A stretch of DNA of 64,000 nucleotides. Source: Pseudomonadota bacterium. Lineage in GTDB: Bacteria > Pseudomonadota > Gammaproteobacteria > Pseudomonadales > Moraxellaceae. The position numbers and the translations under genes are program-made. Below are positions 33,983-34,688 of this stretch, one piece after another. The DNA is taken from positions 1 through 64,000 of the forward strand of contig JAJZHK010000005.1 in NCBI GenBank assembly GCA_021804565.1. The letters are read 5' to 3'. Below the pieces are notes generated by a model. It was given only the letters and a program-made list of their open reading frames with translations. It ran no database searches and was not told where the DNA came from. How positions within the stretch are numbered: the first letter of the stretch is position 1; the number at the start of each line of letters is the position of its first letter.

Positions 33983-34073
33983 TGGCGGTGAGGGGGGGAT
34001 TCGAACCCCCGACACCCTTTTGGGGTGTACTCCCTTAGCAGGGGAGCGCCTTCGGCCTCTCGGCCACCTCACC
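33983..34073 (-). tRNA. tRNA-Ser (anticodon GCU), with encoded CCA
   Basis: On the minus strand the gene starts GGTGAGGTGGCCGAG and has the long variable arm of a class II tRNA (ACACCC/GGGTGT). The anticodon loop is CTGCTAA with anticodon GCT. It closes with CCTCACC, discriminator G and CCA. Its position beside csrA matches E. coli and relatives. Confidence 0.97.
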
Positions 34074-34157: not shown

Positions 34158-34175
34158 TGTCAGCTTATGCTTACA
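34158..34175 (+). promoter_or_regulatory. GacA-type upstream activating sequence
   Basis: TGTCAG-CTTATG-CTTACA matches the Pseudomonas rsmY/rsmZ consensus TGTAAG-N6-CTTACA at 11 of 12 fixed positions. It lies about 80-90 bases ahead of the GGA-rich RNA; a possible -10 (CATAAT, 34242-34247) follows. A chance match next to such an RNA is unlikely. Confidence 0.65.
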
Positions 34176-34249
34176 AAAGCTTCATGCTAATACGCACATT
34201 TTTTGCAGCTCGATGATCTGTCCTGAGATCCACCGCCTCGCCATAATGA

Positions 34250-34416
34250 CCCCCAGGAAGGCACGATGCCTCAGGATCAACAAGGATGCAGGTTTGCGAT
34301 GGGGCGGAGCCCGATCAGGCAGGATGCCTAGAGCCAGGAGGCTTGAACAGCAGACACCAGGGACAGGACAGGGATGAGCAAGAGCGGCCAGGTTGATCCT
34401 GGCCGTCTTATTTTTT
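34250..34416 (+). ncRNA. Candidate CsrA/RsmA-sequestering small RNA (RsmY/RsmZ/CsrB type)
   Basis: Nine GGA triplets lie between 34256 and 34374. Three are presented in loops of consecutive short hairpins: GGGC-GGA-GCCC (34302-34312), AGGC-AGGAT-GCCT (34317-34329) and AGCC-AGGA-GGCT (34332-34343). This is the known CsrA-binding format. The RNA would end at an intrinsic terminator at 34385-34416. It faces csrA convergently, with the csrA stop 75 bases past the T-run, and a GacA-like box lies upstream. No credible protein is encoded. The 5' end is uncertain by about 20 bases. The expected role is to titrate CsrA when GacS/GacA is active. Confidence 0.75.
34385..34416 (+). terminator. Rho-independent terminator of the GGA-rich small RNA
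   Basis: An eight-pair stem CGGCCAGG/CCTGGCCG with a TTGAT loop is followed by TCTTATTTTTT on the plus strand. The T-run orientation shows that it ends plus-strand transcription, not csrA. Confidence 0.85.
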
Positions 34417-34490: not shown

Positions 34491-34688
34491 TCAGTCGAGC
34501 ATGTCCTGGTGATCGCCATGATCTTTTTCACGCTGGATGCGCTGATAGATCTCCTCACGATGCACAGCCACATCTTTGGGTGCATTGACACCTATACGCA
34601 CCTGATTCCCTTTCACACCCAGCACGGTGATGGTCACTTCATCACCGATCATCAAAGTCTCGCCGACACGGCGGGTCAAAATCAGCAT
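34491..34688 (-). CDS. csrA: Carbon storage regulator CsrA/RsmA, mRNA-binding translational regulator
   Basis: A 65-residue protein beginning [16 protein letters not shown] and containing [22 protein letters not shown]. Residues Leu4 and Arg44, central to GGA binding, are present. As a dimer it blocks ribosome-binding sites carrying GGA motifs, controlling carbon flux, motility and biofilm. The gene lies downstream of lysC on the same strand, and the candidate titrating RNA converges on it. Confidence 0.98.

Follow-up and report, generated by a model that had tools for sequence, protein, structure and literature searches.

Does the space between csrA and the neighbouring tRNA-Ser(GCU) gene encode an RNA directed at the CsrA protein? 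Sequence is a poor guide to Csr decoy RNAs. In the window (the whole stretch of 64,000 nucleotides analysed here), a preliminary description had read the interval 34158–34416 as a GacA-activated, CsrB/RsmZ-like RNA set beside csrA, and it is very probable that a small RNA mopping up the global regulator CsrA is encoded there. All parts of the predicted RNA lie within one intergenic space, bounded by two genes on the minus strand, tRNA-Ser(GCU) (33983–34073) and csrA (34491–34688, 65 aa). No other csrA was found in the genome. The RNA is on the plus strand, divergent from the tRNA gene and convergent with csrA.

A palindrome of the GacA/UvrY type, TGTCAG-CTTATG-CTTACA (TGTCAG-N6-CTTACA), occupies positions 34158–34175 of the plus strand, and is found at the same position in relatives. 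The -10-like element CATAAT (34242–34247, plus strand), picked by eye, follows this box by 66 bases. No good -35 was seen in the promoter, and the -10-like element is not among the picks of a consensus promoter scan of the window. The transcript should start near 34254 and measure 160–165 nt or so; the predicted CsrA-binding RNA is thus given here as 34254–34416, about 163 nt, both ends being deduced. Since the transcript starts just past the -10-like element, the initial part of 34158–34416 is promoter. The interval does run from box to terminator, as had been described, but the RNA begins only at about 34254.

Nine GGA motifs start at 34256, 34274, 34284, 34306, 34322, 34337, 34361, 34366 and 34372, and cover 119 nt (34256–34374). 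Three are in the loops of consecutive perfect hairpins, GGGC-GGA-GCCC (34302–34312), AGGCA-GGA-TGCCT (34317–34329) and AGCC-AGGA-GGCT (34332–34343). The RNA is closed by an intrinsic terminator (34380–34416), with a stem of 8 Watson-Crick pairs (34385–34405) and a T-rich tail ending at 34416. The preliminary description had located motifs, loops, terminator with T-run and upstream box exactly where they are; it had also set the RNA directly beside csrA, as is the case, the distance from terminator end to csrA being 74 bases. An early hairpin at 34259–34271 (AGGCA-CGA-TGCCT) carries CGA in the loop, and the aligned place in both same-genus relatives has GGA; one CsrA site seems therefore to have been lost in this species.

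Nine GGA in 119 nt are the highest count found in the window, both strands included. When the whole window was shuffled 200 times with dinucleotides preserved, 63 of the shuffles contained a cluster of at least nine GGA somewhere, so that the density by itself is within the reach of chance. For GGA placed in the loops of perfect hairpins (at least 4 pairs), the window maximum is three per 120 nt, the runner-up having two; such hairpins hold only 3 of the 9 GGA of the RNA. These loops, together with the terminator and the 18-base palindrome in the same space, say more than the count does. The RNA core folds only a little better than its shuffles (z −2.56), as does the whole of 34158–34416 (z −1.71). 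In the window RNA the mean unpaired probability is 0.59 for GGA versus 0.36 overall, some GGA being partly paired in the prediction. As GGA density is unexceptional, the case for an RNA gene rests on comparison across loci.

In both other genomes of the same genus (g1), palindrome, GATAAT, GGA array and the same terminator stem are found in the same space and in that order. The boxes (TGTCAGCAAAAGCTGACA and TGTCGGTAAAAGCTGACA) have the same position as in the window. L002 (TGTCAG/CTGACA) and genus g4 (TGTAAG/CTTACA) have a perfect palindrome, its two halves differing together; that of the window and that of L003 are imperfect. The terminator stem CGGCCAGG/CCTGGCCG is identical in the three same-genus genomes. 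The place aligned to 34332–34343 reads CGGCA-GGGA-TGCCG in L002 and CGGCA-AGGA-TGCCG in L003, with GGA again in the loop. Both sides have changed in 6 of 38 predicted pairs among the three same-genus copies, and in 9 of 31 pairs when g5 and g12 are taken together; the alignments are small and structure-blind, and the covariation terms slight (−0.54 and +0.24 kcal/mol). Model R3, built from g1, identifies one full copy in each of the three genomes; whatever else it matches there is an echo of the terminator on the opposite strand. The array is thus kept in the csrA-tRNA-Ser space of relatives, while the spacer between terminator and csrA has diverged, and could not be aligned even among same-genus copies.

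The comparison family, f1, includes one genome 92% identical over 2.8 kb to a Moraxella lacunata csrA locus, as well as two g15 genomes, with identities of 77% and 81% to a csrA locus of Acinetobacter baumannii; because of these identities f1 is taken as Moraxellaceae. Convergent GGA-rich RNAs with a terminator right after csrA were identified at 15 of 15 csrA loci in genera g1, g4, g5, g12 and g13. They reside in both g4 genomes, all four g5 genomes, the one g12 genome, and the five g13 genomes in which csrA was found, out of nine searched. The box is TGTAAGCATTTGCTTACA in g4, at the same position as in the window, and TGTAGGAAATATCCTACA in three g5 genomes, with a variant in one; g13 features the right half only, CCTACA. 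Box and -10-like element are spaced by 66–67 bases in g1 and g4 (5/5 loci), and by 42–45 bases in g5, g12 and g13 (10/10 loci, measured from the half box in g13). The -10-like element is CATAAT or GATAAT in all five g1 and g4 loci; throughout the 15 loci, -10-like elements and terminators were chosen by visual inspection, L216 having a poor -10. From the -10 to the end of the terminator the loci measure 124 to 335 nt, and from the RNA to csrA 7 (in L015) to 182 bases. In the g13 loci L214 and L215 a long inverted repeat, TGTAGGAAATT at the left and CCTACA at the right of a wide spacer, lies upstream of the RNA, at the site taken in other genera by the 18-base GacA box, and may represent a different operator arrangement. 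A Group II intron RNA (L007:282–504, G005:C137; 182.9 bits) is found about 1 kb from csrA in g4.

Eleven other f1 genera, including Acinetobacter and Moraxella, provided 26 csrA loci, and no csrA-side RNA was seen in the 450–620 bases read after the gene. No more than 5 GGA per 120 nt follow csrA in these loci, and a loose box pattern within 1 kb is present in one only (L133, AT-rich). GGA-rich RNAs beside csrA were found in none of the two A. baumannii and two g15 loci examined. The two Acinetobacter loci (L111, L112) were obtained from a DNA search of a plasmid collection; this gene for an RNA-binding regulator is misleadingly labelled there as a predicted resistance gene, "rsmA, RND antibiotic efflux pump", and one of the records, at 3.66 Mb, seems to be a chromosome placed among the plasmids. 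The tRNA-Ser gene directly adjoins csrA, with no RNA in between, in the g3 loci L005 and L006 and in several outgroup loci.

A covariance model from five g13 copies, R2, matches 9 of 10 RNA loci outside its training set (E 6e-5 to 0.044), each time inside the RNA and on its strand, and none of the 26 csrA loci of RNA-less genera. The window's own RNA is missed by R2. Terminator stems echoed on the opposite strand account for six further matches (E 1e-5 to 0.014); another match, L012:2228–2321 (E 0.096), falls outside any RNA. As the opposite-strand echoes score equally well, much of the cross-genus signal of R2 may come from the terminator. Model R3 reaches at best E 0.049 in other genera; being weak outside g1, it leaves cross-genus homology to rest largely on position and parts.

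RNA presence, coded by genus, was mapped onto a LysC tree, made from one gene by a short search (48 rows). The RNA is found in g5 and g12, in g1 and g4 not in g3, in g13 not in g2, and is missing from a 19-row Acinetobacter/Moraxella side; at least 4 changes are needed. One early gain followed by three losses fits the tree, and multiple gains could also have led to the same distribution.

Adjacency to csrA had been called unusual, and this agrees with a survey of 80 named csrA loci, nine of which have less than 1 kb downstream: none features a dense GGA array with a box, and a short RNA of the g13 type (5 GGA, half box) would be missed by the same survey. At least 8 antisense GGA per 160 nt were counted within 1 kb of csrA in 12 of the 80 loci, none of which is a Csr-like array by eye. 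Antisense reading of tRNA genes explains many of the GGA in the four loci closest to csrA. L083, also among the twelve, has an AT-rich, loose-pattern palindrome upstream of the tRNA. The csrB gene of E. coli, too, presumably does not adjoin csrA.

The preliminary description had called the RNA one of an unannotated type. The window RNA never reaches the gathering score of the Rfam Csr/Rsm families (clan CL00106; RF00018, RF00084, RF00166), the best match being to CsrC (18.5 bits versus 61, E 0.0029). For the same-genus L002, PrrB_RsmZ gives 24.1 bits, its gathering score being 44. According to the available text of PMC11882849, sequence conservation is usually absent among classical Csr RNAs, and repeated GGA motifs are common to them. 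GGA motifs are many in the RNAs described here (9 in the window RNA, 5–17 across the 15 syntenic copies). In the window RNA they are exposed, in terms of predicted unpairedness and of the three hairpin loops; an intrinsic terminator is present, as are a putative promoter of its own with a candidate GacA/UvrY site and a gacA gene in the genome, all features expected of Csr/Rsm antagonist RNAs. The RNA resembles RsmY, RsmZ and RsmX of Pseudomonas in being short, with GGA in hairpin loops, a GacA palindrome at a set distance, a terminator and more than one copy per genome; it differs from them in adjoining csrA, in falling below Rfam gathering scores, and in being unalignable with the tools used. 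GacA sites are given as TGTAAG-N6-CTTACA, at −75 for rsmY and −196 for rsmZ, in the accessible part of PMC4950607; the box of the window RNA, centred at about −88 from the predicted start, resembles the rsmY arrangement. As in the enteric CsrB and CsrC, elements of the CAGGA(U/A/C)G type are repeated in loops, but GGA are 9 rather than the 22 of CsrB (motif and count from the part of PMC7652899 available).

No report of a Csr RNA adjoining csrA was found in the literature, searched largely outside subscription papers, and the Csr decoy RNAs of Moraxellaceae found there are computational predictions only. RsmA-regulating RNAs of Acinetobacter ADP1 were reportedly predicted early by Kulkarni, in 2006. 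Such RNAs are placed at ACIAD0018/0019 and ACIAD2750/2751 in PMC5568370, and a CsrB-like RNA is drawn in the A. baylyi model in the accessible part of PMC12442408. The ADP1 predictions concern the same bacterial family and the same kind of RNA as that of the window.

The genome (G000; 2.52 Mb, 91 contigs) contains four sites matching the box pattern TGTMDGNNNNNNCHKACA, versus one for the reversed control, and two of the four head GGA-rich RNAs. The other two, L141 and L142, are followed by no GGA array on either strand. The second RNA, about 190 nt long with 10 GGA, maps to the minus strand at G000:C32:14769–14958 (L143:1554–1743). Its near-perfect box, TGTAAGCATAGGCTTACA at C32:15127, is 157 bases from the -10-like element, a distance resembling that of rsmZ (−196 in the available text of PMC4950607). 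Several GGA are in hairpins such as GGCCAGGATGGCC, and the terminator is GGGCGGGCAACCGCCC-T6. A LysR-type gene on one side and a periplasmic binding protein gene on the other were recognized by eye as neighbours. Rfam CsrB gives 33.2 bits (E 1.1e-5), the gathering score being 71; when run over the whole genome, the CsrB model provided no lead. Of the 30 consensus pairs of the second RNA, 10 are preserved through changes on both sides in at least one sequence.

The second RNA is strongly conserved in three genera, g1 (3/3), g3 and g4. Two g3 genomes, in which csrA has no adjacent RNA, have two nearby copies each: both were found in G004 (L146, G004:C32), one by model R1 in G030 (L148, G030:C185), the further G030 copy (L148:926–1038) by Rfam PrrB_RsmZ at 29.1 bits. 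With this family the second RNA of g3 reaches 33.6 bits versus a gathering score of 44. A third g3 genome, G019 (94% complete), was found without second RNA, csrA-side RNA and strong GacA match (best 4.9e-31). In g4 the second RNA is present in G005, and was not found in G020, an assembly 86% complete. Weaker matches (E 5e-9 to 3e-6) are in six g13 genomes and one g2 genome. In g2 a weak relative with about 5 GGA (L192, G029:C2:18098–18242; 43.6 bits) sits downstream of an inverted CCTACA/TGTAGG pair, in the order opposite to the usual box. Weak R1 matches in 19 further genomes (E 0.008 to 0.99) were taken as chance, no more than 5 GGA being present at the 12 loci checked. Models of the two RNAs of the genome do not match each other well: R1 has no match in the window RNA, and R3 matches the second RNA with E 0.5 only.

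The regulators are also at hand. The genome has one GacA/UvrY relative (292.5 bits versus an NCBIfam cut-off of 280), encoded next to uvrC and pgsA, both identified by eye. A GacS/BarA-like kinase scores 675.8 bits, the next best in the genome 459.5; the curated cut-off for GacS/BarA is 890, and all 17 genomes searched score below it. GacA relatives turned up in 56 of the 58 genomes searched, also in RNA-less genera, and gacA presence therefore does not mark RNA-bearing genera.

The core of the preliminary reading is borne out, given box, -10-like element, GGA array and terminator in five genera, some covariation, a second RNA found through its box, and gacA with a GacS-like gene in the genome. 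We regard it as highly probable that 34254–34416 (plus strand) is a Csr/Rsm-type decoy RNA, activated by GacA, sequestering CsrA and partnered by the second RNA. As a gene, and in its kind, the predicted RNA is well supported; its function is a predicted one, though titration of CsrA is well supported by the anatomy of the putative RNA. Transcription, control by GacA, binding to CsrA and titration are what we infer from the DNA. When GacS/GacA is active, GacA would bind the palindrome at 34158–34175 and turn the promoter on. The RNA would offer several GGA sites to CsrA dimers, and their capture would free the mRNA targets of CsrA. It would act together with the second RNA (G000:C32:14769–14958), as RsmY does with RsmZ in Pseudomonas.

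The place beside csrA may simply reflect inherited gene order. It is rather unlikely that csrA and decoy form an ancestral linked module of Moraxellaceae, in which GacA-driven convergent transcription reduces CsrA synthesis in cis besides titrating the protein, and which was dissolved with the loss of the RNA in the Acinetobacter/Moraxella lineage. The transcript could instead be mainly a cis-antisense or transcription-interference device lowering csrA, with GGA motifs of secondary importance, as the convergent layout of all 15 loci in five genera and the closeness of csrA (74 bases in the window, 7 in L015) would suggest; yet a terminator, read by eye, closes all 15 copies, and what is kept is the GGA-rich content. 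The csrA-side spacer, 7 to 182 bases long and unalignable within a genus, counts against an antisense role, and the antisense control of csrA by read-through which had been suggested is not supported, for the same reason. We hold such a device very improbable. Slighter still is the chance that a fortuitous GGA cluster lies before the terminator of csrA, with no separate RNA gene: shuffles reach the GGA density and the folding score is modest, but box, -10-like element, GGA array and terminator occur together at one place in five genera, these parts are kept while the spacer to csrA has diverged, and the same box heads the second RNA in the same genome. A short protein can be practically dismissed: the region is overlapped, mechanically, by two open frames (63 and 76 aa), but from one genus to another the -10 and the terminator end are 124 to 335 nt apart, and no reading frame is kept, because 1-base gaps interrupt the array in the alignment of the three same-genus copies.

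The decoy RNA, by far the favoured reading, belongs to a known kind; what is unusual is its position on the csrA side, common to several genera. The syntenic anchor, the box-to-promoter rule and the second RNA are direct experimental targets. Scanning genomes for GacA boxes can reveal Csr-type RNAs which fall below Rfam thresholds, as the second RNA shows. With genera that have the adjacent decoy and genera that lack it, one can ask how control of CsrA fares in its absence.
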